Positions 1,845-35,581 of a stretch of 35,581 nucleotides of DNA are shown one piece after another (position 1 is the first letter of the stretch; each line of letters opens with the position of its first letter). The stretch spans positions 1 through 35,581 of the forward strand of contig JBDLIP010000007.1 in assembly GCA_039714795.1 (NCBI GenBank). Direction: 5' to 3'. This DNA comes from Pseudomonadota bacterium. GTDB lineage: Bacteria > Pseudomonadota > Alphaproteobacteria > JAGOMX01. The notes beneath the pieces are model-generated. The model was not told the DNA's origin. It did no database searches and saw only the letters and a list, made by a program, of their open reading frames with translations. Made by a program: the position numbers and the translations under genes.

Positions 1845-1963
1845 TATACCGAGGTGAAATCAAAACCTTTAGTTTAATGATAGCTCGAAGTGCTCATTTA
1901 CGCTTGTAAACTGCACGCTTCTCGTTATCATTAAACTAAAGGTTTTGATTTCACGAGAGTATA
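1845..1963. repeat. 119-bp palindromic MITE-like element, copy 1
   Basis: Two perfect 29-bp arms, 1854-1882 and 1926-1954, flank a 43-bp centre that contains further complementary pieces (GAAG/CTTC, GTGC/GCAC, TTAC/GTAA). The whole element could fold into one long hairpin. The outer ends read TATAC...GTATA. A second copy of exactly the same length lies at 17195-17313. The right end touches the potG start codon, and the GAGAG in that end is the only ribosome-site-like sequence for potG. No coding capacity is seen. It could be a non-autonomous transposable element or a REP-like repeat; the mobilising enzyme is not in the window. Confidence 0.85.
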
Positions 1964-11620: not shown

Positions 11621-11773
11621 TTACTCCTTGTTTAAGAAGGGGATCATAAATCTAAACATAATCAACAAACTTTTAGCCTCAAACAGAGCTAAAGTCAAGA
11701 TAATCCCAGATAAACCCAGCGCAAAAAGAAGTGCTATACCGAAGACAAATGAAAAACTTAGTTTCCTGGTCAC
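11621..11773 (-). CDS. Small single-span membrane protein of 50 residues
   Basis: A frame from GTG (11771-11773) to TAA (11621-11623) encodes 50 residues. It begins VTRKLSFSFVFGIALLFALG and has one long hydrophobic span (about 8-30), then a charged break and a short second hydrophobic stretch ending in LNKE. The GTG overlaps the def stop as GTGA, and the ribosome site of the next gene is formed by its last codons, so it fits the operon without gaps. No homologue is recognised. It may be a subunit or regulator of the neighbouring membrane transferase. Without comparison, a chance frame cannot be excluded. Confidence 0.5.
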   Translation of the reverse strand: MTRKLSFSFVFGIALLFALGLSGIILTLALFEAKSLLIMFRFMIPFLNKE

Positions 11774-12327
11774 TGACCCACTGCATGCTTTAAAATCTCG
11801 TCTTGGAAGCCAAACTGGCTCGGATCCGTCATGCGCATAGGGAACAGTATTCCCTCAAGGTGGTCGTATTCGTGCTGCATGGCGCGGGCGTGAAACCCAT
11901 GTGCTGTTCGTTCAATTTGCTTTCCTTCAGGAGTAGTGCCGGAATAGTGCACGCTTTGATGACGAGAGACCTTGGCCATTAAGCCCGGAACTGACAAACA
12001 GCTTTCCCAGGTTTCAATTGTCTCATCTCCAATAAGCGTCAATTTGGGGTTGATTAGAATAGTGAGAGGTACTCCATCGGGGTCGTGCTCTGGGGTCAAA
12101 TGATAGCGGGGGTTATTGGTTTTGCGTGGGATCTTAAATAACAGAATCCGTAGGGGAATATGCACCTGTGGGGCAGCCAGGCCAATATTATTGCCCAGAT
12201 TTTCCATGGTGGCTAACATATCATCCACAACACCTTTGATGTGCAGGCTCGTAGGATCGTCAACTTCTTTAGCACGTTGGGTGAGGATGGGATGTCCCAT
12301 TCGCGCAACTTTTAGTATTTTGCCCAT
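11770..12327 (-). CDS. def: Peptide deformylase, canonical copy
   Basis: Peptide deformylase removes the formyl group from nascent proteins. The 185-residue protein has all three motifs: NIGLAAPQ at 47-54, WESCLSVPG with metal ligand C110, and QHEYDHLEG with H152, E153 and H156. Position 109 is Ser rather than the usual Gly of EGCLS. The ATG is preceded by AGGAG at 9 bp. It is the first gene of the minus-strand run that continues into the envelope-glycan genes and is divergent from a second deformylase. This is the more canonical copy and so probably the housekeeping enzyme. Confidence 0.93.
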   Translation of the reverse strand: MGKILKVARMGHPILTQRAKEVDDPTSLHIKGVVDDMLATMENLGNNIGLAAPQVHIPLRILLFKIPRKTNNPRYHLTPEHDPDGVPLTILINPKLTLIGDETIETWESCLSVPGLMAKVSRHQSVHYSGTTPEGKQIERTAHGFHARAMQHEYDHLEGILFPMRMTDPSQFGFQDEILKHAVGQ

Positions 12328-12459: not shown

Positions 12460-12509
12460 CATAATTTGTAAAATGCACGGGATTAGCAACCTTCATCGGA
12501 GTTTTGGCC

Positions 12510-13184
12510 ATGTCTTTATCACCTTCATCTGCTCGGGCTGTTCAGCCTCAGTTGCAAAATTCAGCAAAAATTAAAGCTGCCGACCTTGAACAGCTTGCCA
12601 AAAAGGGGCAGGTTTTGAAAATTGCTAGAATGGGGCACCCTATTTTGGCGCAGAAAGCCGTTAATGTAGCGCCAAGATCCGAAGAAGCAAAACAAATTAT
12701 GGCGGATATCGCAGCAACTGTCTTGGATTTTGGAGCTTTGCAAGGGGTTGCAGTACCTCAATTACATATGAGCAAGCGGGTGGTTTACTATCAGGTTCGG
12801 GAAGCTAAAGTAGATTCTGCAACTTCTGGTGAATTGCCGGGTCGATTCTTGATCAATGCAAAATATGAAAACGTGGGTGATGAAACTTATGAAGATTGGG
12901 AAGCGTGTCTTTCTCTTCCAGATCTGGTTGGCTTGGTTCCACGCCACAAAAAGATACAGCTCAAGGCCATTTGTAGCGATGGGGTGAATTTTGAAGAAGT
13001 GGATGAAATTCTCGAAGGCCATCACGCCCGTGTCTTAGCCCATGAGATTGATCATTTGGATGGAATTTTGTACCCGCAACGTATGCAGGATTTTTCCAAG
13101 TTTGGATATCAGGATGAGATGTTGCGGTACTTTGTGCAACAGCGTGAGAAGAAAGCGGCAGATAAGGCCAGAGCTACTTTATGA
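12510..13184 (+). CDS. Divergent peptide deformylase paralogue with altered motif I
   Basis: The 224-residue protein starts at the ATG at 12510, after CGGAG; an in-frame TTG at 12504 is less likely. It has a 34-residue N-terminal extension, then the deformylase fold: KIARMGHPIL, WEACLSLPDLVG with metal ligand C133, and LAHEIDHLDGILYPQRM with H178, E179 and H182. Motif I reads LQGVAVPQ in place of GIGLAAPQ, so the conserved first Gly and second Ala are replaced, by Leu and Val. Metal binding and the catalytic Glu are kept, so it may be active with a changed substrate pocket. It is head-to-head with the canonical def gene. The C-terminus is rich in Lys and Ala. Confidence 0.88.
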   Translation: MSLSPSSARAVQPQLQNSAKIKAADLEQLAKKGQVLKIARMGHPILAQKAVNVAPRSEEAKQIMADIAATVLDFGALQGVAVPQLHMSKRVVYYQVREAKVDSATSGELPGRFLINAKYENVGDETYEDWEACLSLPDLVGLVPRHKKIQLKAICSDGVNFEEVDEILEGHHARVLAHEIDHLDGILYPQRMQDFSKFGYQDEMLRYFVQQREKKAADKARATL

Positions 13185-17194: not shown

Positions 17195-17313
17195 TATACC
17201 GAAGTGAAATCAAAACCTCTGTTTCCTGATACGCTCGAAGTGCTCATTTACCCAAGTAAACTGCAAGCTGGTAGCTATCATTAAACTAGAGGTTTTGATT
17301 TCACGAGAGTATA
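17195..17313. repeat. 119-bp palindromic MITE-like element, copy 2
   Basis: This copy has the same length and order as the element at 1845-1963: TATACC end, arm 17204-17231, centre with GAAGTGCTCATTTAC, arm 17276-17304 and a GAGAGTATA end. The right arm nearly matches copy 1, while the left arm has several changes and lacks one base, so the palindrome is decayed. It lies between the toxin remnant and rplY. The rest of the gene-free stretch 17132-17440 holds only the rplY leader. Confidence 0.85.
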
Positions 17314-22701: not shown

Positions 22702-23046
22702 ATGCGAATACACAAATCCCTGCATAACTTTGACCCTGAAATCGCCCAAGCTCTGGGAAACGAACTCAACCGCCAGCAAAATCAGTTGGAAATGATTGCT
22801 AGTGAGAATTTTGTCTCGCCTAATGTTATGGCTGCCACCGGCAGCGTGATGACCAACAAATACGCTGAAGGGTACCCGGGCCGGCGCTATTATGGAGGCT
22901 GTGAGTTTGTGGACGTGGCTGAGCGATTGGCTATCGAGCGCGCATGCCAATTGTTTGGCTGCAAGTTTGCCAATGCGCAGCCGCATTCAGGGGGCCAGGT
23001 CAATGAGGCGGCGGTAGTTGATTTGCAGCAAATTCATGCGTCATGA
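22702..23046 (+). pseudogene. glyA: Serine hydroxymethyltransferase, 5' fragment
   Basis: The first 100 or so residues are unmistakable GlyA: an N-terminal helix, [41 protein letters not shown] and [12 protein letters not shown]. GlyA is normally about 420 residues and makes glycine and one-carbon units from serine. After QVN (about 23005) the similarity stops; a dozen unrelated residues lead to a stop. The PLP-binding lysine region and about three quarters of the enzyme are missing. The start codon and upstream signals are intact, so this is a 3' truncation by rearrangement rather than point decay. A complete glyA would be expected elsewhere. Confidence 0.9.
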
Positions 23047-33878: not shown

Positions 33879-33890
33879 TCTCTTAAGCCT

Positions 33891-33923
33891 CGTTTAATTG
33901 GGAATTCTATACCAAATTAAACG
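33891..33923. promoter_or_regulatory. Operator-like palindrome 1 before the DUF4143 ATPase gene
   Basis: CGTTTAATTGG (33891-33901) pairs with CCAAATTAAACG (33912-33923), with one extra base in the second arm and a 10-bp spacer. It begins 13 bp from the ATPase start codon on the opposite strand, so it would overlap promoter or leader. The same arm sequence recurs in palindrome 2. Confidence 0.6.
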
Positions 33924-33950
33924 AAAAAAAACTATTTGGCAAACAAAAAC

Positions 33951-33985
33951 TCGTTTAATTGGCAATGGCATCACCAATTAAACGA
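33951..33985. promoter_or_regulatory. Operator-like palindrome 2 before the DUF4143 ATPase gene
   Basis: TCGTTTAATTGG (33951-33962) and CCAATTAAACGA (33974-33985) are perfect 12-bp arms with an 11-bp spacer. With palindrome 1, this gives four copies of one CGTTTAATTGG half-site in 95 bp. The arrangement suggests cooperative protein binding for regulation, or recognition sites for a recombinase. No regulator gene is adjacent. Confidence 0.65.
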
Positions 33986-34004
33986 AGTTTGGGTGGTTTT
34001 ATCT

Positions 34005-35466: not shown

Positions 35467-35581
35467 TATATTGAAGTGAAACCAGGGCTGTTCAGTGAAA
35501 CCAACACGGCCGTCATCCTGAACGCTGATTTTCCGAACGTGCGACTGTAAGTCGCACGAATTGGAAAATCTTTGCGATTCA
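35467..35581. repeat. Palindromic dispersed repeat at the window end, probably partial
   Basis: The segment opens with TATATTGAAGTGAAA, which resembles the end of the 119-bp element (TATACCGAAGTGAAATC). GTGAAACCA occurs twice (35476-35484 and 35495-35503). Further on, CGTGCGACT (35538-35546) and AGTCGCACG (35550-35558) form a perfect 9-bp stem with a 3-nt loop, flanked by GATTTTCC (35527-35534) and GGAAAATC (35563-35570), which extend it. The element runs off the window edge. No coding frame is supported. Confidence 0.55.

Follow-up and report, generated by a model that had tools for sequence, protein, structure and literature searches.

A TA-inserting family of palindromic MITEs in an alphaproteobacterial genome and the recurrence of its hairpin tip in other bacterial repeats

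Genes and palindromic elements of the window

The window analysed here is a whole contig (C7, 35,581 nucleotides) of an alphaproteobacterial assembly of 1,857,467 bases in 183 contigs. It includes two adjacent, divergent peptide-deformylase-like genes (11770-12327 on the minus strand, 12504-13184 on the plus strand) and a glyA-like (serine hydroxymethyltransferase) ORF at 22702-23046 that, with 114 aa only, is apparently a 5' gene fragment. Furthermore, two tandem 37-bp hairpins, CTCGTTTAATTGG…ACCAAATTAAACGAA and CTCGTTTAATTGG…CACCAATTAAACGAA, which are 81% alike and 61 bp apart, are located at 33889-33986 upstream of an ATPase gene.

Two copies of a palindromic element lie on the plus strand, at 1845..1963 (copy 1) and 17195..17313 (copy 2); these positions and the common length of 119 bp, first given by a sequence-only reading of the window, were both verified. 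Copy 1 belongs to subfamily A, has converted arms and consists of a 115-bp element with a TA on each side, this TA duplication being assigned by analogy since it was established on other copies of the family. Its left arm (1854..1884) and its right arm (1924..1954) match at 30 of 31 positions, so that the near-perfect arms noticed earlier are real. From about position 1868, the left arm carries right-arm sequence, CTTTAGTTTAATGATAGC replacing the CTCTGTTTCCTGATACGC of the family, and the right arm is the probable template of this conversion. The hairpin tip (GTGCTCATTTAC-GCTT-GTAAACTGCAC, 1890..1916) is common to unrelated palindromic repeats elsewhere. Copy 2 is a typical member of subfamily A with imperfect inner arms and a tip (GTGCTCATTTAC-CCAA-GTAAACTGCAA) at 17240..17266. 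Each copy folds into one long hairpin, with z-scores of -12.2 for copy 1 and -8.1 for copy 2 relative to shuffled sequences. Copy 1 abuts the ATG of a potA-like ABC-transporter ATPase gene (GAGAG-TATA-ATG, 1948-1966) and may provide the ribosome-binding region of this downstream gene together with a TATAAT-like box.

A third piece had been reported near 35467. An element end is indeed present there, but it is only a 17-bp truncated left end (TATATTGAAGTGAAACC, 35467..35483, plus strand) and not a third copy. Another isolated left-end-like sequence (TATACCGAAGACAAATGAAAAACT, 11735..11758, plus strand) is probably a truncated or diverged copy. From 35483 on, the sequence belongs to another repeat family (…CCGTCATCCTGAACGCTGATTTTCCGAACGTGCGACTG…) that is unrelated to the MITE, has 40 scored places in the genome and is often found at contig ends (window 35483-35581 and L034-L062). 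It adjoins a truncated MITE end both at window 35483 and at C94:7050, and is reminiscent of CGTC-tagged REPs.

A TA-targeting MITE family

Over the whole assembly, a covariance model identified 122 places of the family after merging of the strands, 97 of them 113-124 bp long. Forty places were scored by BLAST, with identities from 86%, and a 30-base right-arm pattern matched 70 sites while the reversed pattern, used as a control, matched none. The copies have sharp common boundaries, TATACYGAAG...GAGAGTATA in subfamily A and TATACTGAAGCTGAATC...GATTCAGCACGGGTATA in subfamily B. Their terminal inverted repeats are imperfect (TATAC[Y]GAAG / TATACTCTCG) and are followed by the paired arms. As is typical of MITEs, the elements are short, multi-copy and devoid of coding content, and have uniform boundaries. 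The finding that would have spoken against a genome-wide family, namely two copies only and no common boundary, is thus contradicted by 122 places with shared ends. The two window copies belong to this MITE family, which is in itself ordinary.

Empty sites were found in paralogous sequences. For instance, when the flanks of a subfamily A copy (C126:1125) are rejoined, they align with many B-type elements over the junction and leave one TA at the point of insertion. Those of the copy at C8:19864 match other copies of a different dispersed repeat, revealing a net insertion at TA. The copies at C92:4131, C75:1858 and C26:1694 are also net insertions at TA relative to paralogous sequence, although the paralogue of C92:4131 has CA in place of the expected TA in an ungapped alignment. 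In all, five paralogous comparisons give a net insertion at TA. Furthermore, a B copy is nested within an A copy in C2 (7693/7805; CACGA-TA-[TACCCG...CAGTA]-TA-GTATA), and the uninterrupted counterpart of this site, CACGATAGTATA, occurs at C31:11747 and C75:8714. The empty sites and the nested insertion therefore indicate that TA is duplicated and that the element is a TA-targeting MITE of 115 bp plus a TA on each side. Its terminal inverted repeats are imperfect and begin with TACYGAAG / TACTCTCG. Of the two forms proposed by the sequence-only reading, the MITE is hence supported by copy number, common boundary, terminal inverted repeats and TA duplications at empty sites, and the REP/BIME is at odds with the 119-bp length, the TA duplication and the lack of a GTAG or CGTC end tag.

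No transposase with matching terminal repeats was found in the 183-contig assembly, a degree of fragmentation in which a multi-copy IS may be missing. The sole DDE_3 gene, located at a contig end in C39, encodes a predicted protein that scores just below the Pfam cut-offs for DDE_3 and HTH_32, and it has no terminal repeat matching the element. The ends of DDE_3 relatives were considered as a source of the element ends and none match. For instance, an IS630-type relative in Rhabdochromatium (L095) has TATACTGAAAAGTT as ends and shares only TATACTGAA with the element, and no IS630-type ends matching the element were detected in the genome of the window. The left-end pattern has 265 matches in this genome against 14 for the control. 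Isolated left ends were also rejected as marks of an autonomous partner, the 19 examined being truncated or decayed elements. The elements were probably spread by a transposase acting in trans, presumably of the TA-targeting IS630/Tc1-mariner kind. Such an origin is plausible and agrees with the TA duplications deduced from sequence comparison.

By BLAST, no family copies were found in 95 other genomes of the class, apart from two weak core-only matches in one of them (G012). The covariance model detected none in 384 other genomes, and the exact family core was not found on plasmids or phages.

Rickettsia palindromic elements (RPE) insert in frame in genes. Like them, the family is palindromic, falls in the range of 100-150 bp, has several subdivisions and resides in an intracellular-type genome. 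It differs from RPE by its 119-bp length, its demonstrated TA duplication and the avoidance of rejoined ORFs by its full-length copies: only 19 of 85 are inside rejoined ORFs (at least 100 aa), versus 81% of random points. An RPE was therefore rejected. The neighbouring genes of the elements are convergent in 14 cases, in tandem in 33 and divergent in 18, and both element orientations occur. Other counterparts are the TA-flanked bacterial MITEs, i.e. RUP of pneumococcus, which has been linked to an IS630 transposase, Correia/NEMIS and ERIC (PMC2229807). These share with the present family a length of about 100-200 bp, the absence of coding content, one long stem-loop, TA-terminal repeats and many intergenic copies. 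The likeness described here is one of form, and the family stands apart by its concerted arms, its constant tip and the lack of a partner IS with matching ends.

Origin of the matching arms

The sequence-only reading took the perfect arms of copy 1 as a sign of recent spread or of selection for the hairpin, and those of copy 2 as decayed. However, the family consensus is not perfectly palindromic, its inner left arm being CTCTGTTTCCTGATACGC and the reverse complement of its right arm CTCTAGTTTAATGATAGC, and the arms of copy 2 are normal for the family. The left arm of copy 1 agrees with the reverse-complemented right arm of the same copy at 30 of 31 positions, and with the family left arm at only 20 of 31 (ungapped). 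Its CTTTAGTTTAATGATAGC reproduces the right-arm sequence including the indel pattern, plus a private T that is also on its right arm. This private C-to-T change affects both arms in copy 1 and only the right arm in its sister copy in C126. The simplest history is that the C-to-T change arose in the right arm, which was then copied onto the left arm by template switching on the hairpin.

An interpretation of copy 1 as young and intact and of copy 2 as decayed is very improbable. The hairpin of copy 1 is certainly the more perfect, but copy 2 is nearer to the family, scoring 146.6 bits against the covariance model versus 131.9 bits for copy 1. In addition, no other aligned copy has the left arm of copy 1, and no basal group carrying it was seen. 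Furthermore, the copies in C72, C75 and C92 are probably the youngest because they are identical to each other, and their inner arms are imperfect. Judged from these alignments, the proposed polarity is reversed and copy 1 is the exception.

Template switching is an established maker and mender of hairpins (PMC8794818), and bacterial quasipalindromes also mutate in this way (PMC7202029). As a sequence signature, the arm pattern of copy 1 is that of template switching during replication, and corresponds to the classic product, an imperfect hairpin one arm of which has been replaced by its partner in reverse complement (PMC8794818, PMC7202029). Unlike the classic cases, copy 1 lies in a natural multi-copy mobile repeat whose sister copies show the earlier state. 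When single-stranded, for example at replication forks, the element would fold into one long hairpin, and occasional template switching between its arms would overwrite one with the other, as probably happened in copy 1. A second candidate conversion, with a different tract, is found at C63:5354, where the left arm GATAGCGAGAAG reads as the family right arm in reverse complement. Arm overwriting can hence be followed in a natural mobile hairpin with sister copies that keep the earlier state, and the perfection of a hairpin need not signal youth or selection.

The arms also change in concert between subfamilies. They differ and remain self-complementary, 92.7% of the arm cells being paired and 12 of the 17 arm pairs showing two-sided Watson-Crick changes, each seen in at least two copies. 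In controls, pairing was at most 84.3% when right halves were re-dealt among copies and 31-51% when the partner was slid by 1-3 columns. Six complementary two-sided changes were counted inside subfamilies A and B, versus about 0.4 expected by our own estimate, which assumes independent changes; as the copies are related, the counts of arm changes are not independent events. Template switching probably contributes to this concerted change. Selection on matching ends is an alternative, and shared ancestry or recombination between copies can also produce covariation. Such recombination is supported by chimaeric copies, in which one side has an A, B or C arm and the opposite side an arm of another type.

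A hairpin tip shared with other bacterial repeats

The tip comprises a 5-bp TTTAC/GTAAA stem, a variable loop of 3-7 nt and a fixed internal mismatch, TCA/CTSC. Within the family, the mean column identity reaches 0.97 for its left side and 0.92 for its right side, versus 0.81-0.82 for the arms and 0.62 for the loop. From one subfamily to another, the arms change and the tip is constant.

Among 399 sampled Pseudomonadota genomes, which represent 213 genera, 30 genomes from 15 genera contain the exact pattern RTGCTCATTTAC-N3..7-GTAAACTSCG, one of them in as many as 167 copies; the reversed-pattern control gave no match. Within the class, a stricter form is present only in G000 and G012 among 385 genomes. 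In G012, which belongs to another family, the BLAST match corresponds to a tip whose surrounding element has ends (CAGGACTTACGCAG) quite unlike those of the window copies. Named records with the tip include Pseudomonas, Halomonas and Ca. Fukatsuia; a variant is found on one plasmid of Haliscomenobacter (Bacteroidota), and the tip is also in one record labelled Staphylococcus aureus, a label on which we do not rely. It was not found in E. coli (5,426 genomes) or in phage records. Its stem shows compensatory changes, i.e. TTTAT/ATAAA, CTTAC/GTAAG and TTTAG/CTAAA, the last one in Haliscomenobacter.

The tip is roughly central in a palindrome at most of the sites inspected, with weak symmetry at a few of them by a simple ungapped score. 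The stems and ends of these repeats differ by lineage, even inside one genome (G550 and G704), and several lineages share an extended similarity around the tip (GGCGTT..., ...CGCCTTG). For instance, the elements of G483 and G627 end in GTAA...TTAC and are flanked by 8-bp duplications (ACATCAAG and AATTTTGC, exact), versus TA in the window family. GTAA ends with an 8-bp duplication are a hallmark of IS66-type transposition. An IS66-type MITE was rejected for the window family, which has TA. As far as sequences tell, palindromic repeats of other bacteria thus carry the same tip at their apex, although their stems are unrelated and their target duplications differ.

In one genus (g360), tips are few per genome and their arms are site-specific (L242, L243, L245, L246, L289-L302). 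They are mostly located no more than about 35-50 bp past stop codons (of glyA in several species and of secA) or between purH and purD. Exceptions are found past a terminator-like hairpin (L301, L302) or in antisense orientation relative to the two flanking genes (L295, L300), which favours DNA over RNA. No Rfam family was matched at gathering score, and the weak microRNA scores of sub-threshold scans reflect merely a long hairpin. Among the open-access texts listed, none with the motif strings was relevant, and the tip may already be part of a named Pseudomonas repeat.

Several explanations of these features can be weighed. The hairpin could act as RNA in untranslated regions, its fold being selected for stability, RNase III processing or as a protein site and its tip being an RNA motif. 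The strong folds of both window copies, the arm covariation, the conserved internal mismatches, the intergenic bias of full-length copies and the g360 tips just past glyA and secA would all fit. However, the family is found in both orientations and in every gene arrangement, the g360 exceptions and the absence of an Rfam match are unfavourable, and the precise TA duplications denote mobility as DNA; we consider an RNA function rather improbable. REP/BIME-type repeats moved by a RAYT (Y1) transposase would likewise be palindromic, intergenic and numerous, and Y1_Tnp proteins are present in the genome of the window. However, the 115-bp length, the terminal repeats and above all the TA duplications contradict this assignment, which is hardly credible. 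Furthermore, no clean association between tip and Y1 transposase was observed, Y1_Tnp being absent from half of the genomes searched, including the tip-rich G734 and G663.

A single ancient mobile palindrome, transferred between bacteria, could also be the ancestor of all tip repeats, in which case the tip would be a functionless part that diverges slowly. The similarity that reaches beyond the tip in several lineages points to such descent, and the multi-copy, mobile nature of the repeats makes transfer plausible. However, stems, ends and target duplications are wholly different even inside G550 and G704, about 22 tip positions are identical while the loop that they enclose varies freely, and the compensatory changes in the tip stem indicate constraint. 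Common descent alone is thus unlikely. The explanation that we favour, and regard as probable, combines a TA-inserting MITE, a transposase acting in trans, template-switched arms and a tip that is a separable module.

This module would be kept through recognition by a shared partner, for which a host protein that acts on an extruded or single-stranded DNA hairpin is the most likely candidate. A broader proposal, which we put forward tentatively and which may well prove wrong, is that the tip joins GTAG and CGTC as a third widespread tag. Palindromic mobile repeats of different transposase classes, in many genera of proteobacteria and also outside this group, would have acquired or retained it owing to a conserved host factor, or one enzyme, that binds its mismatched hairpin, and the arms and ends would be exchangeable and kept complementary by template switching. 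The closest concept is that of the REP super-families, repeats of 20-40 bp tagged at one end by GTAG or CGTC, in which a small tag is common to the palindromic repeats of many genera (PMC3733652). However, REP tags are unpaired end tetranucleotides, whereas the common part here is the mismatched apical hairpin of long elements. A palindromic tip has also been discussed for the Coxiella MITEs QMITE1 and QMITE2, the latter having direct repeats of 7-11 nt (PMC5896051); QMITE2 has a conserved stem and a divergent tip, the opposite of the window family. The 101-bp MITE-like repeat R178 of P. fluorescens, which has an internal 11-bp inverted repeat (PMC2718517), could include the tip. Palindromic repeats from more than a dozen genera of proteobacteria have one mismatched tip at their centre, with neither ends nor target duplications in common. 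Such sharing predicts that a whole class of small bacterial repeats is recognised by a common partner, which binding and transposition assays could test.

Two further variations were observed in copies of the window family. The stretch CTGACACGATCATAGGGAACTCGAAGTGC is inserted or substituted in the left core of five of them (C16:14129, C39:11575, C98:5282, C2:13444 and C56:11248), which suggests recombination with yet another repeat. In three others (C40:4340, C1:2043 and C34:2132), the loop-side CTGTAAA shows a tandem expansion (CTGTAAACTGTAAACTG) of the kind that replication slippage at a hairpin is expected to produce.
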